From the NCBI GenBank assembly GCA_030739735.1, contig JASLYQ010000007.1, forward strand, positions 1 through 64,000: a DNA stretch of 64,000 nt. The letters are read 5' to 3'. Every line of letters starts with the position of its first letter. The first letter of the stretch is position 1. The notes below the pieces were generated by a model. It saw nothing but the letters and a program-made list of their open reading frames with translations. It searched no databases and had not been told where the DNA came from. Shown piece after piece: positions 1-14,708 of this stretch. The translations under genes were made by a program, and so were the position numbers. The DNA comes from Alphaproteobacteria bacterium. GTDB lineage: Bacteria; Pseudomonadota; Alphaproteobacteria; UBA7887.

Positions 1-80
1 CAAGCGCTCGGCGCGCCTCTGCGGGCGTGTCTCCTTTGAGCGCCGAGTGCGGGCGGATGGTGTTGTAGTCGTGGCGCGCT
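1..80 (-). pseudogene. IS3-family transposase, C-terminal fragment
   Basis: The reverse strand reads DYNTIRPHSAL followed by KGDTPAEARRAL, the end of the integrase core of IS3-family OrfB transposases (known family motif). Upstream, at about base 80, homology stops abruptly and a dispersed repeat begins, so the catalytic part is missing. The 3' end runs off the window. It is a relic of an insertion sequence and marks the left side as accessory DNA. The exact IS is not identifiable from 26 residues. Confidence 0.7.
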
Positions 81-236
81 GAACTTTCCCAAGACCGCCC
101 ATTTTACGTCGCCACGGGCCAGTTAAGCCGGCAAAGAGAGGAAGGCGGAGACGGGCGTACGGAATGGTAGGTATCGAGCCTCCGCATCAACGTTTTGCCC
201 AAGTTCGGTAAAGGTGGCATCGAGCCCCCGCAACCA
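81..236. repeat. Dispersed repeat R, copy 1
   Basis: First of six copies of an intergenic repeat found only in the first 10.4 kb. Its core is the string GGCAAAGAGAGGAAGGCGG followed by GTACGGAATGGTAGGTATCGAG. This copy also has the left block GAACTTTCCCAAGACCG and the right block with GTTTTGCCCAAGTTCGG. Inside it, GTAGGTATCGAGCC and GGTGGCATCGAGCC form a direct repeat about 40 bases apart. The sequence is open on the reverse strand, but differences from copy 2 fall on all codon positions, so it does not look coding. Confidence 0.75.
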
Positions 237-242
237 ATAATT

Positions 243-281
243 AAGCCGCTAATCCAATGGGTTAGTGGCTTTTTTCTTTTT
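243..281 (+). terminator. Terminator-like hairpin after repeat copy 1
   Basis: AAGCCGCTAATCC pairs with GGTTAGTGGCTT around a short loop and runs into a T-rich tract on the plus strand. Hairpins with T tracts also follow repeat copies 2 and 3, so the hairpin may be part of the same mobile or transcribed unit. Confidence 0.6.
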
Positions 282-385
282 GACGCTAATGCCGACTCCC
301 AGAAAAGTGCGCGCGGGTTCAAAGGTTGACCCGTATCGGCATGGATTAAGCCCCATCTAGGAAATTCCGGTTTCTAATCTGATCC

Positions 386-817
386 CTAGGTTTGAGGGTC
401 GTTCTTAGAGCCGGGGTTATTGGACATGCCGGGAATGTCTTCTATCAAGTCGATAAACATGGGGTCGTCCGGGCCGGGTAGGGAGTTGCCGCCCTTGGCT
501 ATGTCATCTGGTGTGATGCCCGGTATGTAGCCACTTGTTTTAAAGGGGTTGGGCGCGAGAGGCGGCGGCATTGCCACAGAGGTGCCAAGCATATTGGGCA
601 CAGAGGCGGCGGCATTGCGGCTAATTTTTCCGATCGATGTCGAGAGTGTACGTGAAATTTTAGGCATCATCGAATCTGGATTTATAACGCGTACCGCTCC
701 GGGGGCTATCGGGGCCGCGGCAATACGTGCGTTCTGGGCCGCGGCTGGCTGCACGGTACCGAAGGCGAGGCTGAGGGCAGCGGCAATGGCGAAACTGCTC
801 GTGGTGGTAATACGCAC
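386..817 (-). CDS. Small secreted protein, paralog of the one at 9816-10136
   Basis: A 143-residue protein of unknown function with a clear Sec signal peptide (MRITTTSSFAIAAALSLAF, cleavage near AAAQ). The mature part is rich in Pro, Ser, Asn and Met and shows no known domain. A GTG start is used; the paralog has ATG at the same place. The segment ISRTLSTSIGKISRN recurs in the paralog, while the C-termini differ and the NPDSMMP block sits at a different position. About 125 bases of upstream DNA are also duplicated, including a CRP-like palindrome. A periplasmic or surface role is inferred only from the signal peptide. Confidence 0.55.
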   Translation of the reverse strand: MRITTTSSFAIAAALSLAFGTVQPAAAQNARIAAAPIAPGAVRVINPDSMMPKISRTLSTSIGKISRNAAASVPNMLGTSVAMPPPLAPNPFKTSGYIPGITPDDIAKGGNSLPGPDDPMFIDLIEDIPGMSNNPGSKNDPQT

Positions 818-907
818 GGTACTCTCCTATCTGTCTTCTGGCACCGCCCTGTGCGGGGCCGTGTTGTCTTGAACAATCAGAAGCTATGCTGGAAGGCGTG
901 ATGGAGA

Positions 908-923
908 AGTGACGCCTGTCACA
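908..923. promoter_or_regulatory. CRP/FNR-like palindrome upstream of the 386-817 gene
   Basis: On the reverse strand the sequence is TGTGACAGGCGTCACT, matching the CRP consensus TGTGA-N6-TCACA at 9 of 10 positions. It lies about 90 bases upstream of the GTG start. The identical 16 bases occur upstream of the paralog at 10227-10242, while flanking positions have diverged. Binding by a CRP-family regulator is an inference. Confidence 0.5.
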
Positions 924-997
924 AAGTAATCTTACTAGGGCGCTGAGCGCCGATTTTTCCGAGAGCCGTGGCCGCGGCCGCGATAGCGGCACCGCGA

Positions 998-1117
998 GGC
1001 AGTTAGGGCAGTAAAGAGAGGAAGGCGGAGGCGGGCGCACGAAATGGTAGGTATCGAGCCGCCGCATCAACGTTTTGGCCAAGTTCGGTATAGGTCGCAT
1101 CGAATCTCCTCGACCAA
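998..1117. repeat. Dispersed repeat R, copy 2
   Basis: Core AAAGAGAGGAAGGCGG and GGTAGGTATCGAGCC are intact, as is the right block GTTTTGGCCAAGTTCGG. The left block (CTTTCCCAAG) is absent: the core directly follows the duplicated upstream region of the secreted-protein gene. The right end, TCGAATCTCCTCGACCA, resembles a tRNA 3' end; this is a resemblance only. Confidence 0.75.
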
Positions 1118-1142
1118 CCTTTTCACGATAAAGCAATGAGTT

Positions 1143-1168
1143 AGCCGCCCTTTGGGGCGGCTTTTTTT
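1143..1168 (+). terminator. Intrinsic terminator after repeat copy 2
   Basis: A perfect stem AGCCGCCC / GGGCGGCT with loop TTTG is followed by a run of T on the plus strand. It is followed by GGTTGCAAAACGGTTGCACGCG, a pattern partly repeated after copy 3. Confidence 0.75.
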
Positions 1169-1261
1169 GTGTCCGGTTGCAAAACGGTTGCACGCGTTTT
1201 TTTGGCGCTGTCCGTGTCAGTTCGGTGTTCTCAATCGCACGTGTCCTTTCATCCTTTACTT

Positions 1262-1579
1262 TCAGAAATCTGAGTTATTTTCATTCCAAGGCGTCAGCGT
1301 CTTGTAGAAAATAGCCTGCTTAATGTTGGTGCCTTTTAAGTTAGTTGTGGAGATGTATACCTCACTCAAGTCAGTTCCACTCAAGTCTACCCCACACAAG
1401 GTAACCTCATTCAAGTTGGCCTTATACAACTTGGTGCCAATAAAGTCGGCACCAATAAAGTCGGCATATGGCTTGTTCGCTAAGCGTTTTTGTTCTGTTA
1501 ATTGTTTGGTTCGTCGCAGCTTCAGGGCGACGGTCAGAGGGTGTTGGTGAGGTGGTGAAGAAACGACCACGTATTTCAA
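1262..1579 (-). pseudogene. Truncated pentapeptide-repeat protein
   Basis: The 105-residue frame has about seven pentapeptides of the A(D/N)LxX kind and ends in TLTPWNENNSDF, closely matching the end of the full gene at 2695-3894 (TLTPWGEDNSGC). No signal peptide or N-terminal cap is present; residues 1-35 look unrelated. Downstream DNA (CAGTTCGG...TTACTTTCAG) is also shared with the full copy, so a segment was duplicated and then lost its 5' part. It could still be a short expressed protein, but a remnant is more likely. Confidence 0.5.
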
Positions 1580-1620
1580 CTATCTTTTGGTTTTTCGCCA
1601 GAGCGTGTTACGCTGCTGTG

Positions 1621-2064
1621 ATGAACGTGCGATTTACGCTAACGCTCACGGCGCTCGCCGCGTTGGTGCTGGCCGCCTGCAACGGCCAGAGATTGCCGGC
1701 CAGCACGGCGCCAATGACCGCCCAAGGGGACACCGGCGCCGCCTTTCAGCCGGTTACCGATGTGCCGATCCCAGACGGTGCGCGACTCGACAGCGAGCGC
1801 AGCCTGGTGCTCGGCGGGCAGGACAATTGGACCGGGCGGCTGGTGTTCAATGTCGGCGAATCCCCCTCCGAAGCGTTCGCCCTCTACCATCAGGAAATGC
1901 GGCGTTTTGGCTGGCGCCTAATCACCAGTGCGCAGTCTGAATCAAGCGTGCTGGCATTCTCTCAAGGAGAGCGCATTGCCACCATCCGGATCGAAGGCCG
2001 CAACCTTTCTGGCACCACCGTCACCATTATAATGTCGCCCCGCCATGCGGGCGGCGATAACTAG
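1621..2064 (+). CDS. Putative lipoprotein of unknown function
   Basis: A 147-residue protein starting at ATG 1621. The frame is open further upstream, but the upstream part overlaps the pentapeptide remnant and the signal peptide begins here. The lipobox LVLAAC places the lipidated Cys at residue 20. The mature part has a compact domain (about residues 50-140) with VPIPDGARLD, FNVGESPSEAFALYHQEM and GWRLI, like envelope lipoproteins described only as hypothetical in related bacteria. It stands alone, followed by a dispersed repeat and a terminator. Confidence 0.65.
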   Translation: MNVRFTLTLTALAALVLAACNGQRLPASTAPMTAQGDTGAAFQPVTDVPIPDGARLDSERSLVLGGQDNWTGRLVFNVGESPSEAFALYHQEMRRFGWRLITSAQSESSVLAFSQGERIATIRIEGRNLSGTTVTIIMSPRHAGGDN

Positions 2065-2173
2065 GTACAGGTGACGCCGCTCGGAGAACGAGGCGGGTGG
2101 TTTGAGCCGGGAGGCAGAGATGGAAAGTATTTTTATTTCTCCAACGGGCGTAAGAATCTTATCGCCCGCGACG

Positions 2174-2302
2174 CCGTGGTGCCATGGCCATGTGCCGGTG
2201 AACTTTCCCAAGCGCGGCCATTCTATGTCGCTACGAGCCACTTAGGCCGGCAAAGAGAGAAACGCGGAGACGGGCGTACGGAATGGTAGGTGTCGAACCC
2301 CT
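2174..2302. repeat. Dispersed repeat R, copy 3
   Basis: Shares the extended left block (GGTGCCATGGCCATGTGCCG, then GAACTTTCCCAAG) with copy 6 and the core with all copies. The right block with GTTTTGCCCAAG is missing. A terminator-like hairpin follows within 30 bases. Confidence 0.7.
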
Positions 2303-2325
2303 TCAGCAAATTGTATCAATGACTT

Positions 2326-2349
2326 AACCGCTCTTTGGGGCGGCTTTTT
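2326..2349 (+). terminator. Terminator-like hairpin after repeat copy 3
   Basis: AACCGCTC / GGGCGGC with loop TTTG and a T run, nearly the same as the hairpin after copy 2. About 30 bases later CTTGCACGCGTTTTT also matches the DNA after copy 2. The stretch from here to 2694 has no gene that I can recognise. Confidence 0.6.
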
Positions 2350-2694
2350 CGTGTCTGCTTACAGAATGCTTGCACGCGTTTTTGGAAAGTGCAGGCAAAA
2401 GGGCATCGAACCTGACGGTTAGGGGTTGATGTTAACTCCATGTTTGATGCAGGCCTAATCACCCTGGCCGACGATTATTCAGCGATCGTTAGCGATCGCG
2501 TCTTGGATATGTCCAGGGGTTACGGGCGGTTGTAGGGAAAACGCTAAGGCTCCCGGGGGGAACGAACGTCATATCCGTCGAAGGCTGCGATCGCCTATCA
2601 CCGCGAAGACATATTCGTCGCTTAAATAGTTGACCGATTTCGGTTCGTGTCAGTTCGGTTTTCTCAATCACACGTGCCCTTTCGTCCCTTACTT

Positions 2695-3894
2695 TCAGCA
2701 ACCTGAGTTATCTTCACCCCAAGGCGTCAGCGTCTTGCAGAAAATAGCGTGCTCAATGTTGGTATCATGCAAGTTAGTGGTGGAGAGGTCTACCTCACTC
2801 AAGTCTACCTCACTCAAGTCGGCCTCACTCAAGTTGGCACTACTCAAGTTGGCAAAACGCAAGTCGGCAAAACTCAAGTTGGCCTTACTCAAGTTGGCAA
2901 AACGCAAGTTGGCATTCTCCAAGTCGGCACCAATCAAGTCGGCGGAACTCAAGTTGGCACCAATCAAGTCGGCACCAATCAAGTAGGCAGAACTTAAGTT
3001 GGCATTCTCCAAGTCGGCACCAACCAACTTGGCAGAACCCAAGTCGGCATCACGCAAGTGGGCCTCTTTCAAGTCGGCACTCCTCAAGTCGGCAAAACGC
3101 AAGTTAGCACCAATTAAGTTGGCACCACTCAAGTTGGCACTCCACAAGTCTGCATAACTCAAGTTGGCACCACTCAAGTTGGTACCACCCAACTTGGCAC
3201 TCCTCAAGTTGGCACTACTCAAGTTGGCATTCTCCAAGTCGGCACCACTCAACTTGGCCAAAAACAAGTCGGCGCCACTCAAGTCGGCACCACCCAAGTC
3301 GGCACTACTCAAGTTGGCATTCTCCAAGTCGGCCTCACGTAAGTTAGCCTCACTCAAGTTGGCCTTCTCCAAGTTGGCAAAACTCAAGTAGGCAGAACTC
3401 AAGTTGGCCTTCTCCAAGTTGGCACTCCACAAGTAGGCAGAACTCAAGTTGGCCTTCTCCAAGTCGGCACCACCCAACTTGGCCAAAAACAAGTTGGCAT
3501 TCTCCAAGTCGGCTTCACGCAAGTCAGCTTCACTCAAGTTGGCCTTCTCCAAGTCGGCACCACCCAACTTGGCCAAAAACAAGTTGGCATTCTCCAAGTT
3601 GGCAAAACTCAAGTAGGCAGAACTCAAGTTGGCATTCTCCAAGTCGGCACCACCCAACTTGGCCAAAAACAAGTCGGCACCACCCAAGTCGGCACTACTC
3701 AAGTGGGCCTCACTCAAGTCGGCACTACTCAAGTTGGCCCCACTCAAGTTGGCCCCACTCAAATCACACTCTGCACAGCCATTGAGCGCTTGAAGTTTCA
3801 GGAGGTCAGTTTCATCAAATGCGGTGGCAGCTCCGCTGCCACAGAGGGCCATCGCCGAAACCAAGAGAGCAGTCAGTTTTTGGAAGTTCCACAT
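2695..3894 (-). CDS. Secreted pentapeptide-repeat protein
   Basis: A 399-residue protein with a signal peptide (residues 1-25), a short cap with two Cys (NGCAECDLSGANL) and then more than 50 tandem pentapeptides of the A(D/N)LxX pattern up to about residue 365. It ends in a tail with FCKTLTPWGEDNSGC, a form common at the end of exported alphaproteobacterial pentapeptide proteins. The fold should be a right-handed quadrilateral beta-helix in the periplasm or outside the cell. Longer blocks such as ENANLFLAKLGGADLE recur, showing recent internal duplication at DNA level. Function unknown; nothing suggests a Qnr-type gyrase role. Confidence 0.8.
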   Translation of the reverse strand: MWNFQKLTALLVSAMALCGSGAATAFDETDLLKLQALNGCAECDLSGANLSGANLSSADLSEAHLSSADLGGADLFLAKLGGADLENANLSSAYLSFANLENANLFLAKLGGADLEKANLSEADLREADLENANLFLAKLGGADLEKANLSSAYLWSANLEKANLSSAYLSFANLEKANLSEANLREADLENANLSSADLGGADLSGADLFLAKLSGADLENANLSSANLRSAKLGGTNLSGANLSYADLWSANLSGANLIGANLRFADLRSADLKEAHLRDADLGSAKLVGADLENANLSSAYLIGADLIGANLSSADLIGADLENANLRFANLSKANLSFADLRFANLSSANLSEADLSEVDLSEVDLSTTNLHDTNIEHAIFCKTLTPWGEDNSGC

Positions 3895-4305
3895 TATTTA
3901 CTGCCTCCCCCCTATTCTTCGTCATATCACGCGTTTAGCAGATCTACCACTTACCCTTGGATCAAGGAGCGTGATCCATGGTGCAGCACTACAACACGGT
4001 CAGGCTATCGCGCTCGACTACGACAATGTGCGCGCCAGAATCGACGACGGCTATCTCGGCTGACCCGGTGATTCGCACCCAGGTGCACGCTAAAACATCA
4101 AGCTCTAGTCCTGTTCGTGATAGACTCGCGTAAGGGCGATCCTGCTGCGACGGAGGCTGCGCAGAAATGCGTTCAGGGCATCAAGGATGGGGCGGCATGG
4201 ATTGTTCCGAGCGCGCCGCCTATAATCTTCAATATCAGCCGGTTCGGCTTCGGAATCGATGAATGGGCCAAACAACCTTAGGAATGGGCAAGGAATTTTC
4301 GTGAC
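3895..4305. other. Intergenic, possible gene remains
   Basis: No intact gene. A plus-strand frame ending at 4063 closes with AIALDYDNVRARIDDGYLG, and another ending near 4280 contains VIDSRKGDPAATEAAQKC and WIVPSAPPIIFNISRFGFG without a start codon. Both read like coding sequence but I cannot assign a family. I saw no convincing Zur box ahead of the DUF3299 gene at 4306. Confidence 0.3.
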
Positions 4306-5037
4306 ATGGTTGGTACTGTGAGATTTTCCATCCGGGATGGACTGCGTGGTGTGGCGGGGCTTTGGCTCGCTATGGTGGTGGTCGCTTCGGCTGAGGCCGA
4401 TCAGGCCAGGACCCTCCAGTGGGAGGATTTGCTGCCGGAGGCCCTGTACGATGTGGAAGTCAGGGCTGTGGCCCTGCAGGAAAAGATGAACCAGCTCACA
4501 CCCCAAGCGGTGGAAGCGTACCGGCGTGTGGCCGACGAGCGTCTGGTGCGTGACAAACTGGCTTCTGGCCTGATCACGGAAGAGGAGTTGAGCGACTGGG
4601 ACCGCCAATTGCTCGCTGACAAGCCAGGTGAGGTGAATCCGGACGCGGTGGCGTTCTGGGACGAGGTAGATAGCACGCGCGATGCGATGGAGGGGCTCGA
4701 CGGCGTGGTCGATGACCGGAACAACGGCCATCTCGTGCGTATTCCGGGATATGCCTTACCACTCGAGTTCGATGGTACCGCGGTCAGTGAGTTTTTGCTC
4801 GTGCCCTATGTCGGGGCCTGTATTCACTCGCCGCCACCGCCGCCCAATCAAATCGTGTTCATCAAGGTATCGGAGCCGTTCTCCAGCAAAGGGTTGTTCA
4901 CACCGGTGTGGGTCGAAGGAGTTCTGAATACAACTCTTGACTCGCACGAACTCTCCCTAGTAGATGGTAGAGCACCTATCGATGTCGGATACAGGATAGA
5001 GGGAGCGGTGGTGGCCCCGTACGAAGAAGAGTTTTGA
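4306..5037 (+). CDS. DUF3299 periplasmic protein
   Basis: A 243-residue exported protein: signal peptide 1-32, a helical charged region (about 36-130) and a C-terminal DUF3299 domain with LLVPYVGACIHSPPPPPNQ near residue 170 and GLFTPVWVEG near 205, the hallmark motifs of this family. It is 10 bases upstream of an ABC ATPase gene, and a permease gene follows. From memory, DUF3299 proteins sit beside MacB-like ABC transporters in zinc-responsive operons (zrg-type in Vibrio, PA4063-4066 in Pseudomonas), so a role in metal handling at the envelope is inferred. The His-rich binding protein of those operons is not present here. Confidence 0.75.
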   Translation: MVGTVRFSIRDGLRGVAGLWLAMVVVASAEADQARTLQWEDLLPEALYDVEVRAVALQEKMNQLTPQAVEAYRRVADERLVRDKLASGLITEEELSDWDRQLLADKPGEVNPDAVAFWDEVDSTRDAMEGLDGVVDDRNNGHLVRIPGYALPLEFDGTAVSEFLLVPYVGACIHSPPPPPNQIVFIKVSEPFSSKGLFTPVWVEGVLNTTLDSHELSLVDGRAPIDVGYRIEGAVVAPYEEEF

Positions 5038-5047
5038 GTAGAGTTCC

Positions 5048-5824
5048 ATGGGACTGACGGCAGAACGTGATAACCCTCGTCTAGAATCGGAATCGTATGG
5101 CGAGGGTGAAAAAGCCCTCCCGATCGTTGCGGTTCAGGACCTGAGCTTTCGTTGGAGTGTCCGGGCGCCCTATGTTCTGGGCATTGGCGAGCTCTCGATC
5201 CAACGCGGTGAGCGCATTTTTATTGAAGGCCCGAGCGGCAGCGGCAAAACCACGCTCTTAAATCTGCTCGCAGGCGTGGTGACGCCTGATTCCGGCCATA
5301 TCGTTATTCTTGGCACGGATATCGCCAGCTTGAGTGGCCCCGAGCGCGACGCCTTTCGGAGCGCCCATATAGGCTTGGTCTTTCAGATGTTCAATCTGAT
5401 TCCCTACCTGTCAGCGATTGAGAACGTGTTGCTGCCGTGCCGTTTTTCACATGCGCGTCGCGCTGCGCTGGCGGAAGCAGGCACCACGCCGCAGGAAGAG
5501 GCGCATCGCCTGTTTTCTCATTTACAGCTCGATTCCGAGCACCTCTTGCGCGGCTCCGTCACGCGCCTCAGTGCCGGCCAGCAGCAACGGGTTGCAGTGG
5601 CCCGTGCCTTGATCGGCAAGCCTGAACTCATGATATGTGATGAGCCGACCTCTGCGCTCGATGCCGACGCGGCGCGCGCCTTTCTCCAGCTGATTTCTGC
5701 CGAGGCGGCCGCCTCTGGGGCGACATTGGTGTTTGTCTCCCATGACCGGAGCCTTGCCGGTATGTTCGATCGCACGGTCGAACTGCCCAAGATCAACCAA
5801 CCTGCCGGAGCATTGGGGTCATGA
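5048..5824 (+). CDS. ABC transporter ATP-binding protein, MacB/LolD type
   Basis: A 258-residue ATPase. Walker A is GPSGSGKTTLL near residue 59, the Q-loop is VFQMFNLIPYLS, the signature is RLSAGQQQRVAVARAL (LSAGQ instead of LSGGQ), Walker B is LMICDEPTSALD and the switch His is in FVSHD. The size and Q-loop place it with the MacB/LolD mechanotransmission group. Its stop overlaps the permease ATG by four bases, implying coupled translation. It powers the permease encoded next, probably with the DUF3299 protein on the periplasmic side. Confidence 0.88.
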   Translation: MGLTAERDNPRLESESYGEGEKALPIVAVQDLSFRWSVRAPYVLGIGELSIQRGERIFIEGPSGSGKTTLLNLLAGVVTPDSGHIVILGTDIASLSGPERDAFRSAHIGLVFQMFNLIPYLSAIENVLLPCRFSHARRAALAEAGTTPQEEAHRLFSHLQLDSEHLLRGSVTRLSAGQQQRVAVARALIGKPELMICDEPTSALDADAARAFLQLISAEAAASGATLVFVSHDRSLAGMFDRTVELPKINQPAGALGS

Positions 5825-7089
5825 CCGCGCCGCTGTTTGGTCTGGCACGGCGAAGCCTGTTCAACCGGCGGGTTACGGCCGGCCTGACCGTGCTCACCAT
5901 TGGCCTCAGCGTCGCCCTGCTGCTGGGTGTCGAGACGGTCCGTTCCGGGGCACGGCTGAGCTTCACCAACACGATCTCGAGCACGGATCTAATCGTGGGC
6001 GCCCGTACGGGACCGACTCAACTGTTGCTCTACTCCGTGTTCCGCATTGGCAATGCGACCAATGGCATATCCTATGAAAGCTACGAGGAGGTCGCGAGCT
6101 GGCCCAACGTGGCTTGGGCCGTGCCGCTCTCCCTTGGCGATTCCCATCGCGGTTTCCGCGTCCTCGGAACCACAGATGAATATTTTTCATACTATCGATA
6201 TGGAAGAAAACAACCCCTGGCTTTTGCCGAAGGCGCGCCTTTCGCCGACGCGCATGACGCCGTGATTGGCGCCGATGTGGCGGACGCGCTAGGTTATAGC
6301 ATCGGCAGCTCACTCGTGGTCGCGCACGGGCTTGATTCCCTGGGCCAAACCGATCATGACGACGAGCCATTTCATGTCACCGGCGTGCTGGCCCGCACAG
6401 GCACCCCGATTGACCGCACCGTCCATGTCAGCCTGCAGGCGATCGAGCAGATTCATGACGGCTGGGAGGACGGCATGCCGCCTCGGCCGGGGCACGATAT
6501 CGAGAGGGAACACGAGCACGACATGGAAGCCGAGCCGCTGGCGATCACGGCTATCCTTCTCGGCGTAACGTCGAAGCTTGCGACGCTCGATATCCAGCGC
6601 AAGGTGAATACATACGAAGTCGAGCCCCTGCTCGCGATCCTGCCGGGCGCCACGCTGCAGGAACTATGGGACAGTATCGGCACACTGGAATCCGCCCTGC
6701 TGGCAATTTCGGTCATGGTCGTCGGCACGGGCCTGCTAGGCATGATGACGGTCAGCCTTGCCGCCTTGAACGAGCGTCGGCGCGAGATGGCGATCCTGCG
6801 ATCGGTTGGCGCGCGCCCGGCCCATATATTCGGCCTGCTTGTGCTCGAATCCGGCATACTGGCGCTGGCCGGAGCACTGGCTGGCCTGGCTATGCTTTAC
6901 GCTCTCTTGGGAGTCCTTCAGCCTTTCATCCAGGCAAGCTTCGGCTTGCATCTAACCATTGATGCGCCTTCGCTCTGGCAGTGGACCGTGCTTGGCCTAG
7001 TCGTTCTGGCAGGTTGCCTCGCCGGTATCATTCCAGCGACCCGCGCCTATCGCAACACTTTGGCCGACGGCCTGATCGTTCAGACCTAA
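5821..7089 (+). CDS. ABC transporter permease, FtsX/MacB-like, with His-rich loop
   Basis: A 422-residue permease with one transmembrane segment near residues 20-40, a large periplasmic domain and three C-terminal segments (about 290-315, 335-365, 385-405), the FtsX/MacB topology. The periplasmic domain carries two clusters of likely metal ligands: DHDDEPFH near residue 177 and GHDIEREHEHDMEAEP near 224. These clusters are not expected of a generic LolC or MacB protein and support a divalent-metal function. The substrate is not established. Confidence 0.82.
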   Translation: MTAPLFGLARRSLFNRRVTAGLTVLTIGLSVALLLGVETVRSGARLSFTNTISSTDLIVGARTGPTQLLLYSVFRIGNATNGISYESYEEVASWPNVAWAVPLSLGDSHRGFRVLGTTDEYFSYYRYGRKQPLAFAEGAPFADAHDAVIGADVADALGYSIGSSLVVAHGLDSLGQTDHDDEPFHVTGVLARTGTPIDRTVHVSLQAIEQIHDGWEDGMPPRPGHDIEREHEHDMEAEPLAITAILLGVTSKLATLDIQRKVNTYEVEPLLAILPGATLQELWDSIGTLESALLAISVMVVGTGLLGMMTVSLAALNERRREMAILRSVGARPAHIFGLLVLESGILALAGALAGLAMLYALLGVLQPFIQASFGLHLTIDAPSLWQWTVLGLVVLAGCLAGIIPATRAYRNTLADGLIVQT

Positions 7090-7113
7090 AAGGTCACGGG
7101 CTCTGCGGCTCGC

Positions 7114-7363
7114 ATGAATCCGCTTCGGGCTTGACGACGGCGATAGCCGGGGTGCGCTGAAGCTCGTCGACATCACCTCGACCTCGGAGTGGCAGGTCGG
7201 CACCGTAAGCCCCTACTTCGGCAGCCACGAGCTCAGCTATCTGCCATTTCCCGGAGAGATGATTACCGAGCGGACCAACCTCGCCTTCATTTACGTCTCT
7301 ATGGACAGCAAAAAAACTGTCGATCTCCGCGAATTTCTGAAGTCGCGGCTGGCGGAAGGTTAG
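7114..7363 (+). pseudogene. Unassigned gene remnant, C-terminal part
   Basis: An open frame of about 82 codons with no usable start codon near its beginning reads like real protein: LVDITSTSEWQVGTV, LSYLPFPGEMITERTN, LAFIYVSMDSKK and LREFLKSRLAEG before the stop. It lies between the permease and the SRPBCC gene. The family is not recognised. I treat it as the tail of a truncated gene. Confidence 0.35.
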
Positions 7364-7402
7364 CCGGAGGCCGCCTTGACTTAGAAAATATTTGGCCGCA
7401 AC

Positions 7403-7879
7403 GTGGACACATATGCGGTGGTGTGCCGGCCGCCGACAAACGGCAGCGTGCCGCACGCCCAGGCCCTGAATGTCAAGAAATCAGCTTCATTCAAGGCGAG
7501 CGCGGATGAGGTCTGGCACGTTATCAACGAATTCGGTAGTTTGCAAAAATGGCATCCGTGGTTCGCGGACTCCACATTGTACACTGAGAATGGTGCTCTG
7601 CATCGCTTGGTCGTGGCCAGTGACGGCGCCTGGGTCGTCGAGAGCTTGGAGGCTTATTCGTGGGCCGGCAAGTCGTACACCTACAGCATCGTCGACGGCG
7701 TATTCCCGATCGCGAACTACACCGCGACCATCGCGGTGAGTGAGTCCGGCACTGGCTCGACCATAACCTGGTCGTCGTCCTTTGACGCTGCGGGCATGGC
7801 GGACGAGGAAGTTGTGAAGCTCGTCATCGACGCCTATCAGACCGGCTTCAAGGGCATCGCCACAATCACCGGCGAATAG
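7403..7879 (+). CDS. SRPBCC (polyketide cyclase/Bet v 1-like) protein
   Basis: A 158-residue protein. From residue 24 it has the SRPBCC pattern: VKKSASFKASADEVWHVINE, then FGSLQKWHPWF, and a C-terminal helix VVKLVIDAYQTGFKG. Such START-like folds bind hydrophobic ligands. The first 22 residues end in PHAQALNVKKS, which looks like the end of a signal peptide whose hydrophobic core is missing; the N-terminus may therefore be damaged. No operon partner; a gene remnant precedes it and a dispersed repeat follows. Confidence 0.65.
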   Translation: MDTYAVVCRPPTNGSVPHAQALNVKKSASFKASADEVWHVINEFGSLQKWHPWFADSTLYTENGALHRLVVASDGAWVVESLEAYSWAGKSYTYSIVDGVFPIANYTATIAVSESGTGSTITWSSSFDAAGMADEEVVKLVIDAYQTGFKGIATITGE

Positions 7880-7932
7880 CGCCAGGAACCACAGGTGACT
7901 AGCCTGATTCAGGTGGTCCAGCCTTTATGAGA

Positions 7933-8047
7933 GAGTTAGACCGGCAAAGAGAGGACGGCGGGGACGGGCGTACGGAATGCTAGGTATCGATCCCCCCAAC
8001 GTTTTGCCCAAGCTCTGTAAAGGTCGCATAGAGCCCCCGCAACTACC
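7933..8047. repeat. Dispersed repeat R, copy 4
   Basis: Contains the core (CCGGCAAAGAGAGGACGGCGG, GTACGGAATGCTAGGTATCGA) and the right block (CAACGTTTTGCCCAAG, GGTCGCATAGAGCCCCCGCAA). A short deletion removes the GCCTCCGCAT stretch present in copies 1 and 2. No terminator hairpin follows this copy. Confidence 0.7.
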
Positions 8048-8410
8048 CCAATATTGCGCTAGCGATTTAGTGCTGTGGCTATAAATTACGAATCTGGTTC
8101 AGACAGAAAGTAGTTTGCTACAAAAGCAAGACCAGACGACTTGGTTTAGAATCATCGGCTCCACCCCCAGGTTCGAACTTGAATCTGGTCACCGCTAGAT
8201 GCCCGTGATGCTGTGTGTCAGTTTGTCGAGGCGGCACCACGTCGGCAGTTGTTCGCAGGCATCATTGCGCTGATTAACGGACTGTGTGGGTCGCCCTTTG
8301 AGGACGCTTCCGCATGGCTCGGCAGTGTCGGCCTCAAGCCGTCCAACTATGGCATTCTCGATGGCAGAACATTGACCAAATACATTGAGGTGGGCCATAT
8401 TCAAGAGCCA
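8048..8410. other. Intergenic; possible tRNA-end remnant and unassigned frame
   Basis: Around 8142-8165 GGTTTAGAATCATCGGCTCCACC resembles a decayed tRNA T-arm plus acceptor end and shares GGCTCCACC with the 3' end of tRNA-Ala at 12736. A plus-strand frame from 8213 (LINGLCGSPFEDASAWLGSV) runs into the antisense of the epimerase gene; it may be a remnant but I cannot name it. Confidence 0.25.
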
Positions 8411-9415
8411 TTAGCCGAATGGATCGGTCCGGATCCAATCGATTGTTTCGCGCAACAAGGTTGGGATACCACGCACCTTTACGCCTAGGCTATCGCGCCG
8501 GGTGAAATCGAACCCAGTGGAAGTGACCGGTTTCTCGGTCAGCGGCGCGGGCATCTTCATGTCGGGGAGAATTATTTGAATCTCGGCATAAATATCTTGC
8601 CAATGCCAACTGTCATACACGCCGAAATAGCGCCCTGATGCACCTGGATTTTCGTAGGCCGCCATAAACAGCGCCGCCAGATCATGCAAGTGGATCATTG
8701 AGGTCGAAGTGTTGGGCACTGTCTCATGACGGCCCTCCCGCCCTTCGATCAGAGCCTTAAGCCAGACATGAGGATTGCCATTCATCTGCGCTGGCAAAAT
8801 CACGGGCCCGAACATGCCGGTCGGCAAGAGAATCGATAGTCGAATATTGTTCTCTTCCGCAAATTTGATTGCAGCCTTCTCCATCACGGTTTTGGTGGCT
8901 GAGGTATACTTCTTGGATCGACATTGCACCTTTTCATCGGACCAATGGTCGACCTCGTTCTTAACCGGGATCGGGGGCAAGGGATTGGTGCTGCTGGTGC
9001 TGCTGCAGATCACCACGTTTTTGATGCCTTGGCGCGCACCGGCGCGCATAATATTCATACAGCCATTGACCGTAGGCATGATGATTTCGGCACAACCCTG
9101 TTCGTCATCCATTTCCCGCGCCGGTATGCCCGAGGGACCGGCATATGTCGGAATAAGACAGGCTATGAACACACAGTCGACGCCATCGAGTGCGTCATCA
9201 AAATCCCCAATATTGGCCATGTCGGCACTCGCTAAGGTCAAACGCTTTGATGCGCCGGGCAGCGCCATTAAATAGGGCGCCTTGCTTGGCGCGTCCTTGT
9301 CGCGCATGGTACCGCGAATCCGATAGCCTCGATCGAGCGCGGCTTTGACGATATTTGAGCCCACTAGGCCACTGGCCCCTACGACACAGAGGGTTGATTC
9401 TGATGGAGTCATCAC
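8411..9415 (-). CDS. NAD(P)-dependent epimerase/reductase, extended SDR
   Basis: A 334-residue extended SDR of the dihydroflavonol-reductase/epimerase group. The N-terminal nucleotide motif is VVGASGLVGSNIV (GxxGxxG), followed by DALDGVDCVFIAC, the catalytic-Ser region VVICSSTSST and the Tyr-Lys region KKYTSATKTVMEKAA. The Tyr and Lys are separated by four residues rather than three, which is unusual. The C-terminus has the usual substrate-domain pattern ending LLRETIDWI. It is flanked by dispersed repeats. Substrate unknown. Confidence 0.8.
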   Translation of the reverse strand: MMTPSESTLCVVGASGLVGSNIVKAALDRGYRIRGTMRDKDAPSKAPYLMALPGASKRLTLASADMANIGDFDDALDGVDCVFIACLIPTYAGPSGIPAREMDDEQGCAEIIMPTVNGCMNIMRAGARQGIKNVVICSSTSSTNPLPPIPVKNEVDHWSDEKVQCRSKKYTSATKTVMEKAAIKFAEENNIRLSILLPTGMFGPVILPAQMNGNPHVWLKALIEGREGRHETVPNTSTSMIHLHDLAALFMAAYENPGASGRYFGVYDSWHWQDIYAEIQIILPDMKMPAPLTEKPVTSTGFDFTRRDSLGVKVRGIPTLLRETIDWIRTDPFG

Positions 9416-9815
9416 CGACAGCCTGTTGAATCGTTAAAATGAATCGTGACCAGCCCCTAACGACCGGGCCAGTTTGATTGTTAGTTCATGACCAGCCTCT
9501 GGTCCATCGGGACGATAGTTACCTTATCCAGGGTCGAATTCGGTAGCTGCCTGATTTTCTCCTGCCTTCTTGGCCAATCAGGCCGGCAAAGAGAGGAATG
9601 CCGAGACCGGCGTACGGAATGGTAGGTATCGAGTCACCAGCCCTACATGGAAGATCTATAAACAGTCCCGTCTTGCTTTCGAGAGTTAGCCCTATCTTAA
9701 CCGAAGGAGATGTGTGGTTTGAGTGCCTTATGCTACCATCAGTGAGTACCGGGAAAGACTAATCAGGGGAATGCCGTCATGGTCGGCGTGGAATATCTGA
9801 AGCCTACCCTCAACA
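9416..9815. other. Intergenic with repeat copy 5
   Basis: Apart from repeat copy 5 (9577-9638) no gene is visible. A short plus-strand frame at 9779 begins MVGVEYLKPTLNITAERL and then runs into the antisense of the secreted-protein gene, so it could be the start of a gene cut by the segmental duplication. Confidence 0.3.
9577..9638. repeat. Dispersed repeat R, copy 5 (core only)
   Basis: Core only: AGGCCGGCAAAGAGAGGAATG and GCGTACGGAATGGTAGGTATC. Left and right blocks are absent. Confidence 0.65.
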
Positions 9816-10136
9816 TCACCGCCGAGCGTTTGACCTGCCGGGCATCATCGAATCTGGATTTACTACAGAGGTGCCAGGCGTATTGGCCACAGAGGTGGCG
9901 GTATTGCGGCTGATTTCTCCGATTGGCGTCGAAAGTCCACGCGAGATTGTAGGCATCCTCGGCACGGCCGTGACAATGGGAATCCTCATTCTAGTAACGC
10001 TTATCGCCCCGGCCGGGTTGGGCATAGTAATCGAGCGCGGGCTGAAAGTCTTCTGGGCTGCGGCTGTCTGCACGGCACCGAAGGTCAGACTGAGGGCAGC
10101 GGCAATGGCAAAACTGCTCGTGGTGGTGATACGCAT
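9816..10136 (-). CDS. Small secreted protein, paralog of the one at 386-817
   Basis: A 106-residue protein with signal peptide MRITTTSSFAIAAALSLTF and AAAQ cleavage site. The start is set at ATG 10136 because the signal peptide is conserved from there. It shares STPIGEISRNTATSV with its paralog but has a different middle segment and a shorter C-terminus ending just after NPDSMMP, so the two have been rearranged as well as mutated. Upstream DNA including the CRP-like palindrome and a copy of repeat R is duplicated too. Function unknown. Confidence 0.5.
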   Translation of the reverse strand: MRITTTSSFAIAAALSLTFGAVQTAAAQKTFSPRSITMPNPAGAISVTRMRIPIVTAVPRMPTISRGLSTPIGEISRNTATSVANTPGTSVVNPDSMMPGRSNARR

Positions 10137-10226
10137 GGTATTCTCCTCTCTACGTCCTGGCACCGCCCCGTGCGCTGCCGTGTTGTCTTGAACAACCAGA
10201 AGCTATGCTGGAAAGCGTGATGGAGA

Positions 10227-10242
10227 AGTGACGCCTGTCACA
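10227..10242. promoter_or_regulatory. CRP/FNR-like palindrome upstream of the 9816-10136 gene
   Basis: Same 16 bases as at 908-923 (reverse strand TGTGACAGGCGTCACT), about 90 bases upstream of the start. Exact conservation in two otherwise diverging copies suggests a functional operator; the regulator is unknown. Confidence 0.5.
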
Positions 10243-10317
10243 AAGCAGTTTTATTAGGGTTCTGAGACGCTAATTTTCCCGAGAGCCATGGCCACGGTCG
10301 CGATAGCGGTGCCGGAC

Positions 10318-10412
10318 CGTGGTGCCAGGGCCGTGGGACGGTGAACTTTCCCAAGACCGACCATTCTATGTCGCGACGAGCGAGTTGGGGCGGTAAAGAG
10401 AGGAAGGCGAGG
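10318..10412. repeat. Dispersed repeat R, copy 6
   Basis: Has the extended left block (GTGGTGCCAGGGCCGTGGGAC, GAACTTTCCCAAGACCG, CCATTCTATGTCGCGACGAG) and the start of the core (GGTAAAGAGAGGAAGGCG). The rest of the core and the right block are missing; different DNA begins near 10412. Confidence 0.7.
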
Positions 10413-10447
10413 GCGTCCCGGAGAACGCCGCCGGGGCGGTCAAGTAG

Positions 10448-10570
10448 TATACCAAGGCCGCCTCGAATGTCGCCGTCAACCCGGCCAATACCGCTCGCCT
10501 CCAGTCAATTGGCGCGCCACCTCAAATAATGCAGGCTGAATCGTTTGGCATGTACCTTGGGGTAGAGTTA
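10448..10570 (+). pseudogene. Possible TctC/Bug-type binding-protein tail
   Basis: The frame reads SNVAVNPANTARLQSIGAPP followed by ESFGMYL, similar in pattern to the last helices of tripartite tricarboxylate transporter binding proteins (NPEV..RL..LG..P......F). An in-frame TAG lies just upstream at 10445. If correct it is a short relic. The remaining DNA between 10137 and 10770 shows nothing else beyond the repeat and the duplicated upstream region. Confidence 0.25.
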
Positions 10571-10770
10571 TCATTCTCTCATGCGATTGTTGGGTGCATA
10601 CTTGTTCTTCAGTGTTGCGCTTCTTGTTGATCCGCTAGTCCACGCGTTCGCGACGGTCTTGAAGAGCGAGAACGTTGCACCAATGCCGACGATCAACTGA
10701 CGCGCTTACCTCCGTTTGGTGTTTCCCACTGGCAGGGTGCACCTGAATGAGACCAAATAGAGAGGAATAT

Positions 10771-11895
10771 ATGACTAGCCAATTGTTTTCAGCCTTGAAG
10801 ATAAAAGATGTCGAACTGGTAAACCGAATTGTCATTGCACCCATGTGCCAATATAGCGCCAAGAAAGGCGTGCCCAACGATTGGCACCTGATGCACTTGG
10901 GCCAGTTTTCCGTATCCGGAGCTGGGTTAGTAATTGCCGAGGCAACGGCGGTTGAGGCCATCGGCCGTATATCCCCAGGCTGCCCGATCCTCGAAACCGA
11001 TGAGCAGGAAGAGGCCTTCGCTCGCATCGTGAAGTTTTTTGATGATTTTGGTGTTGCCCAAGCGGGTATCCAGCTTGCTCACGCCGGGCGCAAGGCTTCG
11101 ACCGATATGCCGTGGAACGGTGGCAAGCCGTTGAGCCCAGATCAAGGCGGCTGGAATACAGTTGGCCCGTCTGCCGAGCCGTTTGAAGACGGTTGGCATA
11201 CGCCGGCAAAAATGACTCGCGAGGACATGGACCGCATTCGCGATTGTTTCGTCGCATCTGCCAAACGTGCCGACCGGATCGGTTTTAAGGTAGTCGAACT
11301 GCATGGTGCGCACGGCTATTTGATGAGCCAGTTCCTTTCGCCAATCGCCAATCACCGCACAGACGAGTACGGTGGCAGCCTCGAAAACCGCATGCGCTAT
11401 CCTCTTGAGATATTTAATGCAGTCCGCGCCGTGTGGCCGGAAGGCAAGGTCTTGGGAGTGCGCTTGTCCGCTACCGATTACGACGAGCCGGGCATCACCA
11501 TAGAAGAGTCCGTCGAGGTCTCGAAGGCGCTGAAGGAGCTTGGATGTGATTTCATTGATTGTTCGTCCGGCGGCAACTTGGCGACCCGTCCGCCGGTAGG
11601 AACTACCGGACCGGGTTACCAGGTGCCCTTCGCCGAAGCCATCAAGAAGGGCAGCGGTATCATGACCATGGCGGTCGGCATGATCCGTGACCCCCATTTG
11701 GCTGAGGATGTGGTGGCATCGGGTAAGGCCGATCTGGTGGCGTTGGCGCGCGGCATGCTCTACGACCCACACTGGCCAATGCATGCGGCTGACGTACTTG
11801 GTGTCGAGGCGTCCTATCCGCCACAATACATGCGTTCGCGCCCAAGCCTGTGGCCAAAAGCATTTCCTGAGTTTCAGCAAGCAGCGGCTGACTAA
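10771..11895 (+). CDS. NADH:flavin oxidoreductase, Old Yellow Enzyme family (YqjM-like)
   Basis: A 374-residue FMN-dependent ene-reductase. ATG 10771 is chosen over an upstream start because AGAGAGGA sits in front and the conserved N-terminus SALKIKDVELVNRIV begins there. IAPMCQYSA places Cys at residue 26, as in the YqjM (thermophilic-like) subclass. HAGRK, LHGAHGYL, the FMN-binding NHRTDEYGGS and the C-terminal ALARGMLYDPHWP are all present. It should reduce activated C=C bonds with NAD(P)H in the cytoplasm. No operon partner; the physiological substrate is unknown. Confidence 0.9.
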   Translation: MTSQLFSALKIKDVELVNRIVIAPMCQYSAKKGVPNDWHLMHLGQFSVSGAGLVIAEATAVEAIGRISPGCPILETDEQEEAFARIVKFFDDFGVAQAGIQLAHAGRKASTDMPWNGGKPLSPDQGGWNTVGPSAEPFEDGWHTPAKMTREDMDRIRDCFVASAKRADRIGFKVVELHGAHGYLMSQFLSPIANHRTDEYGGSLENRMRYPLEIFNAVRAVWPEGKVLGVRLSATDYDEPGITIEESVEVSKALKELGCDFIDCSSGGNLATRPPVGTTGPGYQVPFAEAIKKGSGIMTMAVGMIRDPHLAEDVVASGKADLVALARGMLYDPHWPMHAADVLGVEASYPPQYMRSRPSLWPKAFPEFQQAAAD

Positions 11896-12048
11896 TCCAG
11901 ACTATTGGGAGGTCGGCTCGGTAAGGTCATCAATGGGGTTCATGGTATCAACCGGGTAATTTACAGAGCATGAACTCTATTTTTTAGCAACGAAACTTGT
12001 TGTTATACAAAACAAAGTGCATGTACCAAATATAGGAAAACACAAATC

Positions 12049-12558
12049 ATGAAGAAACTCACAGTAATCTTTATAATAACATGTTTGGTCACGGTGGTTT
12101 GTGGAGTAAATATAACTGTGGCGGACGAGGCCAAGCCAGAATGGCAATTCATGCAGACGGCAGAGAAGGCAGAAGTCACTTCCGAAACAACTTTGGTGAT
12201 GCTGTCAGGCCGCGACATCTTTGCCTTCACCGACCGTCCTTATCGTAAGCACGCATACATCACGACTGAAACGTTTGCTTCACTGTGGGGCGAAGGTGGG
12301 ACGTTTAGGGAAAACCCACCTAATGCAGTGCTGACATGGGTCTCAGGAGAGAATATGAAGGAAAGCGAGATTATAATAAATGGTGGGGAGTGGCATGGCG
12401 ACGGTAGAGTGACGTATTCTTATACTTTAGAGGCCGGGGACGTGCCGGAGCTCAGCATCACCACGCCATCTCTTTTTATTGATGGGTATGAGTGCCTGTG
12501 CACGTTTTTATACATAGTATGCTTACGTGGAATCACAGGGATTAACATGTGTTCGTGA
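12049..12558 (+). CDS. Secreted protein of unknown function, AT-rich gene
   Basis: A 169-residue protein with a signal peptide (MKKLTVIFIITCLVTVVCGV). The mature region has FAFTDRPYRKHAYIT, FASLWGEGGTFRENPPNAVL and YSYTLEAGDVPEL, a beta-rich pattern I cannot assign. The last 20 residues contain Cys and hydrophobic residues and may follow a frameshift. Base composition is clearly lower in GC than the neighbours, including the intergenic DNA before it, which suggests recent transfer. It lies just outside tRNA-Ala, in the accessory block. Confidence 0.55.
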   Translation: MKKLTVIFIITCLVTVVCGVNITVADEAKPEWQFMQTAEKAEVTSETTLVMLSGRDIFAFTDRPYRKHAYITTETFASLWGEGGTFRENPPNAVLTWVSGENMKESEIIINGGEWHGDGRVTYSYTLEAGDVPELSITTPSLFIDGYECLCTFLYIVCLRGITGINMCS

Positions 12559-12735
12559 TTCAATGAAAGCGCAACAGGGCCTATCGGCAACCCCGTCACG
12601 AGCTTCGATCATCGACCGGATCCTGGGCTGAGATTGCAAGCCTCAGCGGTTAACCATTCGTTGCCAGAGTGTTGCCAAACGCTCGATCCAGAAAGGATCA
12701 AGGAGTTATGATCTCTCGCAACCCCTTGATTTATC

Positions 12736-12811
<76 letters not shown>

Positions 12812-12899
12812 GTATGTTTGGTGGGCGTTCGGGCGCCTCTACAGCCGCCAAACTAGAACATTTGCCGCGCCTTTGGAACTAGTTTGATGGTGTGCCGGA

Positions 12900-13205
12900 T
12901 CAGTTCTTTCGGTCCTTATCGCCGACCAACACGTTGGCGTCGTCCTTGTCGTCCTTGGTGGTCAGGGGGGCGTCATCCACGTCGTTCTCGGTGTCGTTCT
13001 CAGCGTCGTCATCCACCACTTTCTTCGGTTTCTTCGAGGGCGCGGGTTCGGCGGGTTTTGGCGCTGCGCGCGTCGGCTTTGGCTTGATTACGGCCTCGAC
13101 CACGGTCTCACACTTCGGACATGTGGGTGGCAAATTTCCCATGTCATAAAACTTGGCGCCACAGCTTGTGCAGAGATGCTTGTTACCCAAGTCTTTCGTA
13201 GCCAT
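12900..13205 (-). CDS. FYDLN-acid family protein (TIGR02300)
   Basis: A 101-residue protein starting at MATKDLGNKHLC. A zinc-ribbon-like N-terminus CTSCGAKFYDMGNLPPTCPKC is followed by a Pro/Lys linker and a long acidic tail (DDDAENDTENDVDD), the composition that defines this alphaproteobacterial family. The family motif FYDLN appears here as FYDMG. It is divergent from aroA, the usual place. Function is not established; the acidic tail ends in a charged KDRKN. Confidence 0.85.
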   Translation of the reverse strand: MATKDLGNKHLCTSCGAKFYDMGNLPPTCPKCETVVEAVIKPKPTRAAPKPAEPAPSKKPKKVVDDDAENDTENDVDDAPLTTKDDKDDANVLVGDKDRKN

Positions 13206-13379
13206 CGTGCTATCCTTTCTCAACGCGTCTCACCACAGCGTGGTCGGAGGTCGCCTTTGCCATGATCGCCAACCGCCTGTCAAAGCAAAATTGCCCCGGC
13301 GCCAGCTCTCGCATATGCGCGCCATCCATGCTAGGGCTCGCGCAAAGAAGCAATTCAATCGAGCGACAGTAGAAACAGC

Positions 13380-14708
13380 GTGCAACCCTTGCAATCAACA
13401 GCAACCGGCACACTTGGGGGCGACATTGTCGCGCCCGGCGATAAATCTATTTCCCACCGCGCGCTCCTGCTTAGCGCCCTGACAGTGGGGCAAACCGAGA
13501 TCGACGGCCTGCTCACGGCCGAGGATACGCTAGCTACGGCGGCGGCGATCTCTGCGCTGGGTGCGCCGGCCAGTTACGATGAGGCTGGACGTTGGCACGT
13601 CACCGGTGTCGGTGTCGGCGGCCTCAGTGCGCCCGAAGGGGTGCTTGATCTTGGCAATAGTGGTACCGGCGCGCGCCTCCTGCTCGGCGTCTTGGTTGGG
13701 CATCCGCTGAGCGCGGTGTTGACGGGCGACGACTCCTTACGCTCGCGCCCCATGGCTCGCGTTACGGAGCCGCTCTCGCGCATGGGCGCGCATTTCGTCT
13801 GCGCTGACGGAGGGCGGCTGCCCATCACCGTGACCGGTACGGCTGATCCGCTGGCGCTGGACTATCGCTTGCCCGTGCCCTCAGCGCAGGTCAAATCCGC
13901 GTTGTTGTTGGCGGGTCTTTCGGCCGCAGGCCAGACAACCATCATCGAATCCAAGCCAACGCGCGACCACTCAGAGCGCATGCTGCGCTTGTTCGGTGCC
14001 AACGTGAGCAGCGATACCGAGGCGGATGGTGGCAAGCGAATTACGCTGGAGGGCCAGCCCGAGCTTGTCTCGCCTGGATCGTTGACGGTGCCGGGGGATC
14101 CCTCGTCGGCTGCCTTTCCCCTGGTCGCGGCATTGCTGGTGCCGGGCTCGCGCGTGACCGTTGGCGGTGTCTGCATCAACGCGTTGCGCACCGGCCTATA
14201 CGAAAGTCTGAGCGAGATGGGGGCCACATTGGAGTTCGCCGAGACAGGCGAAGCCTGCGGCGATAGCGTAGCGGACCTCCACGCCAGTGCTAGCGCGCTT
14301 CGCGGTGTGACGGTCCCCGCCGAGCGAGCTCCACGCATGATCGACGAGTACCCCATCCTGGCTATCGCCGCCGCCTGCGCTAGTGGCACTAGCCGCTTTG
14401 AGGGTCTGGGTGAACTCAGGGTCAAGGAAAGCGACCGGCTGGCGGCGATCACCGACGGCCTGGCCGCCAACGGTGTCACGGTTGAAGGTGATGCGGATAG
14501 CCTGACCATAATGGGCGCCGGCGGCCCGCCACCTGGTGGCGGTACGGTCGTAACCCATGGCGATCACCGCATTGCCATGGCCTTCCTAATCTTGGGCCTG
14601 GTCACACGGCGGCCGGTGACCATCGACGACGGCAGCATGATCGCCACCAGCTTTCCCGGCTTTGCCGAACTGATGGGCGGTCTAGGCGCCTGCATCACCC
14701 AGCCATGA
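13380..14708 (+). CDS. aroA: 3-phosphoshikimate 1-carboxyvinyltransferase (EPSP synthase)
   Basis: A 442-residue enzyme of the shikimate pathway joining shikimate-3-phosphate and PEP. It begins at GTG 13380, with PGDKSISHRALLL near residue 20. Other landmarks are LGNSGTGARLLLG, DDSLRSRPM, SAQVKSALLLAGL, TRDHSERML, PGDPSSAAFPLVAA, ELRVKESDRL and GDHRIAMAF. The SAQVKSA and TRDHSE context fits class II enzymes. The stop overlaps the start of cmk by four bases, giving a conserved aroA-cmk-rpsA order. Confidence 0.96.
   Translation: MQPLQSTATGTLGGDIVAPGDKSISHRALLLSALTVGQTEIDGLLTAEDTLATAAAISALGAPASYDEAGRWHVTGVGVGGLSAPEGVLDLGNSGTGARLLLGVLVGHPLSAVLTGDDSLRSRPMARVTEPLSRMGAHFVCADGGRLPITVTGTADPLALDYRLPVPSAQVKSALLLAGLSAAGQTTIIESKPTRDHSERMLRLFGANVSSDTEADGGKRITLEGQPELVSPGSLTVPGDPSSAAFPLVAALLVPGSRVTVGGVCINALRTGLYESLSEMGATLEFAETGEACGDSVADLHASASALRGVTVPAERAPRMIDEYPILAIAAACASGTSRFEGLGELRVKESDRLAAITDGLAANGVTVEGDADSLTIMGAGGPPPGGGTVVTHGDHRIAMAFLILGLVTRRPVTIDDGSMIATSFPGFAELMGGLGACITQP

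Follow-up and report, generated by a model that had tools for sequence, protein, structure and literature searches.

The 64,000-nucleotide stretch of alphaproteobacterial contig JASLYQ010000007.1 analysed here (the window; the genome it comes from is called the source genome) carries, at positions 4306-7089 of the + strand, three genes encoding a DUF3299 protein, an ATP-binding cassette (ABC) ATPase, and a permease. This gene content had been proposed, with correct coordinates, by a first-pass annotation made from the letters alone, and it was confirmed by Pfam. The first gene (4306..5037, +) encodes a ZrgE/PA4066-like protein of 243 aa (PF11736, E 3.5e-34), the one PF11736 match in the source genome, with an apparent Sec signal as judged by eye, a long insert N-terminal to the DUF3299 core, and a CIHSPPPPPNQ motif; its nearest solved relative is PDB entry 4hsp (phmmer, 1.3e-20), which is PA4066 (PMC8561739). 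The second (5048..5824, +) encodes a ZrgC/PA4064-like ATPase of 258 aa (PF00005 ABC_tran, 6.7e-32), in which Walker A (GPSGSGKTT), signature (LSAGQQQR), and Walker B (LMICDEP) motifs are intact on direct reading; its identity with the ATPases from five operons that have a linked zrgA is 42-59%, as expected of an adjacent ATPase of the ZrgC type. Its best NCBIfam match, LolD/DevA, is under the cut-off, and no NCBIfam model is above its cut-off among the matches listed for the operon proteins. The third gene (5821..7089, +), which shares its first 4 bases with the end of the ATPase gene, encodes a MacB/FtsX-type, ZrgB/PA4065-like permease of 422 aa (PF12704 MacB_PCD, 6.5e-15; PF02687 FtsX, 1.5e-17). 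It is 52-62% identical to 49 orthologous permeases, of which 47 come from loci that also contain a ZrgA gene, and this identifies it as a permease of the ZrgB type.

Two described systems share these components. Zrg of Vibrio, to which zinc uptake has been assigned, consists of ZrgA (DUF2796), the permease ZrgB, the ATPase ZrgC, ZrgD, and the DUF3299 protein ZrgE (PMC9817125, PMC9820375). In Pseudomonas, PA4063-4066 is described as a Zur-regulated system combining a split MacB-type ATPase and permease with the DUF3299 protein PA4066 (PMC11481552, PMC8561739), of which PA4064-65 is a proposed pyochelin-cobalt exporter (PMC11481552); the direction of transport in systems of the Zrg and PA4063 type, zinc uptake in Vibrio versus pyochelin-cobalt export in Pseudomonas, is thus in dispute. 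The source operon has counterparts of ZrgB, ZrgC, and ZrgE in common with ZrgABCDE of V. cholerae and V. parahaemolyticus but differs in its order (DUF3299-ATPase-permease), in a permease loop with three histidines, and in that neither ZrgA (PF10986) nor a Zur-like gene was found in the source genome, nor a Zur box upstream of the operon. Similarly, it shares a separate MacB-type ATPase and permease and a DUF3299 protein with PA4063-PA4066 of Pseudomonas aeruginosa but lacks the His-rich PA4063/ZrgA protein, and Zur regulation was not found. As in MacB of MacAB-TolC, the permease has four transmembrane helices and the MacB periplasmic core (PF12704/PF02687 and predicted fold), whereas the ATPase is a separate protein and nothing like HlyD or MacA occurs among the nine window proteins scanned. 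LolCDE also has separate ATPase and permease proteins of the same fold, but here one permease gene stands in place of LolC plus LolE, and the NCBIfam scores lie far under the curated cut-offs (lolCE 19.4 of 362 bits, LolD 154.5 of 307.75).

An AlphaFold2 (AF2) model of the permease, built with 49 orthologues in the alignment (predicted local distance difference test, pLDDT, 83.1; predicted template modeling score 0.71), makes residues 52-274 a domain flanked by the first two long transmembrane helices and matches MacB, LolE, and the non-canonical Streptococcus pneumoniae permease 5xu1 (Z 18-24; 5gko 18.4, 5nik 18.7, 9rlc_E 21.6; Foldseek against 5gko, 1.1e-18). LolC of LolCDE has a Hook that binds LolA. 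The first-pass annotation had singled out two histidine clusters in the loop expected to be periplasmic, residues 175-188 (GQTDHDDEPFHVTG) and 221-239 (PRPGHDIEREHEHDMEAEP), and both do lie in the domain between the two helices. The first (HDDEPFH, 6355..6375, +) is ruled out as a special feature, being mostly a family motif, H-D-D-K-P-F in orthologue alignments, with H179 conserved in 245/245 permeases and column 185 a histidine in 8/245. The second, which did prove distinctive, belongs to a variable loop of residues 213-238 (6457..6534, +) carrying H225, H231, and H233, of which residues 223-235 have pLDDT below 50 and are predicted to be disordered. Immediately 5' of this loop lies the codon of H212 (6454..6456, +), which like H169 (6325..6327, +) is a histidine in 245/245 permeases; the H109 column is one in 226/245. 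The three invariant residues H169, H179, and H212 are also histidines in the distant homologues that were aligned, and to our knowledge no function has been assigned to them.

Loop histidines and zrgA linkage across the family

Counting a loop as histidine-rich from three histidines upward, we found none such among 174 permeases with a linked zrgA, all of which have 0-2, versus 52 among 71 unlinked ones, with a maximum of 60. The separation is kept at thresholds of 4, 5, and 6 (0/174 linked each time; 47/71, 45/71, and 40/71 unlinked), and the source loop with its three histidines stands out against the linked mean of 0.21 (Poisson P 0.0014). Histidines per loop residue amount to 0.009 in linked and 0.19 in unlinked permeases, as compared with 0.034 and 0.041 in the rest of the periplasmic domain, so that the enrichment is restricted to the loop. 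Loop length does not explain it, because loops of 23-30 aa differ alike (at least three histidines in 0/159 linked and 8/14 unlinked).

These 245 permease rows came from named contigs (the best 80 among 573 relatives detected), from samples at class and phylum level (a match in 29/385 and 70/398 genomes, part of the matches being fetched), and from f190, a gammaproteobacterial-looking family picked after three ZrgA-less, histidine-rich cases had surfaced in it, in which 104/147 genomes have the permease and 53/147 have PF10986, and 87 of 110 permease places were taken as loci. L224, L281, and L285 were classed as zrgA-linked, given a same-strand PF10986 match roughly 5 to 10.5 kb upstream. Left out were loci at contig ends (L019, L157, L127, L141, L153), distant ones without linked ZrgA (L021, L022, L023, L158, and L159, with 18, 1, 1, 4, and 3 loop histidines), L085 (no ATPase found), L013 (without permease), and three with broken or masked permease frames (L240, L242, L266; six histidines each, no ZrgA); eight plasmid loci also stand outside the counts.

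The same relation is seen at closer range. Within f190, the loop has 0-2 histidines in 18/18 cases with ZrgA in the locus and at least three, up to 60, in 43/52 from genomes without ZrgA; where ZrgA is encoded elsewhere in the genome, 11/17 have at least three, and for three of the remaining six a ZrgA gene lies some 5 to 10.5 kb upstream. Both kinds of permease coexist in five genomes, and four of these pairs agree (unlinked/linked histidines 6/0, 7/0, 4/0, 3/0, and 0/1). For example, two permeases from the same genus that are 79% identical have 11 loop histidines in the genome without ZrgA (G724) and one in the genome with it (G783). To account for shared ancestry, independent pairs were counted on a tree of the 232 rows left once near-identical ones were merged, the loop being excluded from its construction. 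At a threshold of three histidines, the association was favored by 4-6 independent pairs and contradicted by none (median p 0.031, a value that a FastTree tree reproduced), and at two about 6 pairs favored it and 0.1 contradicted it (p 0.031). ZrgA-less clades with histidine-rich loops number at least 7 and are interspersed among the zrgA-linked permeases.

ZrgA and Zur in the source genome and its relatives

The first-pass annotation had also stated that the His-rich binding protein of related operons is missing, and this holds for operon and genome alike: a hidden Markov model (HMM) search gave 0 PF10986 matches across the source genome (G000, 98.8% complete), PF10986 negatives in this work being those of HMM searches of assemblies that are in part incomplete. 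No ZrgA remnant was found by tblastn with the ZrgA set in window positions 1-14000, the weak matches (e.g. 0.012 at 6421-6522) falling on the permease's own histidine loop. The stretch LTAERDNPRL at the ATPase N-terminus was considered as a remnant of the ZrgA C-terminus and dismissed as chance, ranking 419 of 127,906 by position matrix with 111 positions in the region. ZrgA was found in 3/8 genomes of the same family. The nearest permease on the tree is that of locus L132 in genome G088 (Shimodaira-Hasegawa-like approximate likelihood ratio support 96), a sister operon with the order DUF3299-ZrgA-ATPase-permease, to which the source operon corresponds minus ZrgA; the sister permease has no loop histidine versus three in the source.

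Zur-type boxes were scored against a 14-position consensus, TGTTATANTATAACA, and by position weight matrix (PWM) in upstream regions delimited by a simple gap rule, some promoters possibly lying further upstream. In the region upstream of the source operon (3956..4365, +), no such box was found, the best match being 9/14 (shuffle mean 8.4) with a best PWM score of -2.0, whereas the sister operon has 12/14 and 17.0. The source genome encodes ZnuA, and its znuA locus (L169) is likewise without a Zur box. Two FUR-family proteins occur in the source genome, one Fur-like and one Irr-like, and a Zur-like one was not found there, as against 11/11 other genomes tested, the sister included. The Fur, Irr, and Zur labels were given by resemblance, Zur-like meaning similar to the FUR gene adjoining zrgA in L155, and the label for G783 comes from a weaker match (69.7 bits), the other candidate of that genome containing stops. 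Because neither a Zur box nor a Zur-like gene was found, the source system seems, as judged from sequence, to be released from zinc-dependent Zur repression, and a zinc response through Zur is unlikely here; the first-pass annotation had pointed to reports of zinc-responsive related operons in Vibrio and Pseudomonas. Matches of at least 12/14 precede 52/173 zrgA-linked operons (one linked row has too little sequence) and are rare in shuffled sequences. In L155, zrgA adjoins both the Zur-like FUR gene and one coding for an HPHEW-motif protein, and in Phaeobacter inhibens a Fur-family gene immediately precedes DUF2796.

The permease loop as a candidate replacement for ZrgA

Because histidine-rich loops are, across the 245 permeases, confined to those without a linked zrgA, and turn up there in several lineages, the comparison supports the idea raised by the first-pass annotation that the permease histidines take over a metal role, as far as the second cluster is concerned and not the first. 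It suggests that the metal-binding job of the missing partner moved into the pump itself in the source and in several other ZrgA-less lineages. We give an even chance to the reading that the source operon is a MacB-fold system of the Zrg/PA4063-4066 type which lost ZrgA and Zur control and in which the permease loop replaces ZrgA. In such a system, the disordered loop rich in His, Asp, and Glu, starting right after H212, would bind a divalent metal (zinc, perhaps cobalt or copper) and act in cis as ZrgA acts in trans, loading metal onto a periplasmic domain that keeps H169 and H179. ATP-driven movement of this domain, by mechanotransmission as described for MacB (PMC11481552), might then pass on, release, or expel the metal or a metal complex, and the DUF3299 protein would serve as a periplasmic accessory. 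It is of note that the His-rich loop of ZrgA adds zinc sites in vitro (PMC9820375).

A broader form of this proposal, in which we have somewhat less than even confidence, is that loss of ZrgA has repeatedly been matched by a histidine-rich antenna of 3 to 60 histidines at a fixed point after an invariant histidine. ZrgA and antenna would then be interchangeable loaders of a mechanotransmitting MacB-type transporter, the periplasmic domain with its three invariant histidines would be the metal-handling site, and zrgA-less operons would be self-sufficient, here even without Zur. If the partner can indeed be swapped for a permease loop, metal handling would be located in the periplasmic domain, attention would turn to the three invariant histidines, and binding and mutagenesis could be studied on a single protein; searches for ZrgA or Zur boxes would miss many such systems. 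Our literature search, which drew on partial texts, found no description of ZrgA-less systems with histidine-rich permeases, and the word histidine is absent from the main text of PMC11481552.

Several observations weigh against these proposals. The histidine-rich state is absent in 19/71 unlinked permeases, including L122 (Falsiruegeria, whole genome without ZrgA), L015, L156, L215, L137, L090, and L133, and is thus not obligatory; such orthologues are what the first-pass annotation had named as contrary evidence, the zrgA-linked ones being uninformative in this respect since they still have ZrgA. The source loop holds just three histidines, the lowest count classed as rich. The 52 histidine-rich cases are concentrated in few clades, and at thresholds of 4 and 6 there were 0 pairs against but too few pairs altogether (about 4 to 0 at 4; median p 0.125). 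In most unlinked operons, Zur-type boxes occur at about the level of chance (at least 12/14 in 8/52 histidine-rich and 0/19 others). Moreover, the His loop of ZrgA is dispensable in V. cholerae, so that having such a loop may not suffice to stand in for ZrgA (PMC9820375).

An alternative that we consider unlikely is relaxed constraint, whereby docking of ZrgA fixes the loop sequence and, once ZrgA is lost, the loop drifts, its histidines being incidental, especially the three of the source. The zrgA-linked loop is indeed short and patterned (W215, G218, SA...R.MDL.P), and the 19/71 unlinked loops below the threshold have diverged while gaining fewer than three histidines. Drift, on the other hand, leaves unexplained why unlinked loops reach 19% His and 24% Asp plus Glu with reduced Arg, why at least three histidines are present in 36/36 of those longer than 30 aa, and why repeats like HDEHDEH arise again in separate clades.

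It is rather improbable that the ZrgA-less, histidine-loop permeases form a distinct class serving some different purpose, for instance exporting a metal complex together with MacA or handling copper, with nothing taken over from ZrgA. This would agree with the report of PA4064-65 as a pyochelin-cobalt exporter (PMC11481552), with the absence of a Zur-type box from most unlinked operons, with a PCuAC gene close to one clade, and with a plasmid of Ruegeria conchae (L338), where an HlyD/MacA-like gene adjoins the ATPase, permease, and DUF3299 genes. The scattering of histidine-loop permeases among zrgA-linked ones, with the source beside L132, and the near-perfect Zur-type boxes kept in 8/52 argue against it. 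Finally, a decaying or idle relic, lacking ZrgA, Zur, and promoter as the missing box and Zur-like gene might suggest, is very doubtful, all three frames being open, the ATPase motifs intact, and 76 permease columns invariant in 50 rows including the source despite 52-62% identity.

Neighboring genes and distant relatives

No neighbor protein with more than 9% His that might substitute for ZrgA was found in the 71 unlinked loci, nor a metal-gene neighborhood common to the clades, which sit in different places. A PCuAC copper chaperone gene (L256 6561-6986) lies on the opposite strand near one clade of ZrgA-less histidine-loop operons, in seven loci. L133 keeps, between its DUF3299 and ATPase genes, a remnant of zrgA interrupted by a stop (G132:C213:2744-2908), and an intact copy of the gene is located about 10 kb away.

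Among the plasmid loci, that of Phaeobacter inhibens has DUF2796 and 0 loop histidines, and those of Ruegeria conchae and Rhodobacteraceae M382 (L339) have long histidine-rich loops and no DUF2796 within the stretch examined. The latter two begin with a biotin/lipoyl-binding gene, which in Ruegeria Pfam shows to be HlyD-like, followed by ATPase, permease, and DUF3299; this pairing with a membrane-fusion-like gene suggests a tripartite export form. Shorter histidine-rich loops occur in plasmid relatives from Shinella, Rhizobium, and Paracoccus, and none in Deinococcus radiodurans. In the Deinococcus, Shinella, and Rhizobium plasmids (L340, L341, L344), these distant relatives have the gene order alkaline phosphatase, small secreted-looking CPFC-motif protein, ATPase, permease; periplasmic alkaline phosphatase is usually a zinc enzyme. 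One more ATPase-permease pair of MacB-like type, a distant one, is encoded in the source genome (L158, G000:C1:36770-37981; 28% identity), likewise without ZrgA and with four histidines in the corresponding loop.

Within the window, the divergent upstream neighbor of the operon encodes a pentapeptide-repeat protein of 399 aa (2695-3894, -; PF00805, 2.2e-97), and the C-terminus encoded by a short open reading frame (ORF) at 1262-1579 (-) resembles that of this protein (CKTLTPW/YKTLTPW). Two small ORFs, one on each side of the operon region (386-817, -; 9816-10163, -), have the N-terminal stretch MRITTTSSFAIAAALSL in common and, going by this shared stretch, are apparently a duplicated gene.

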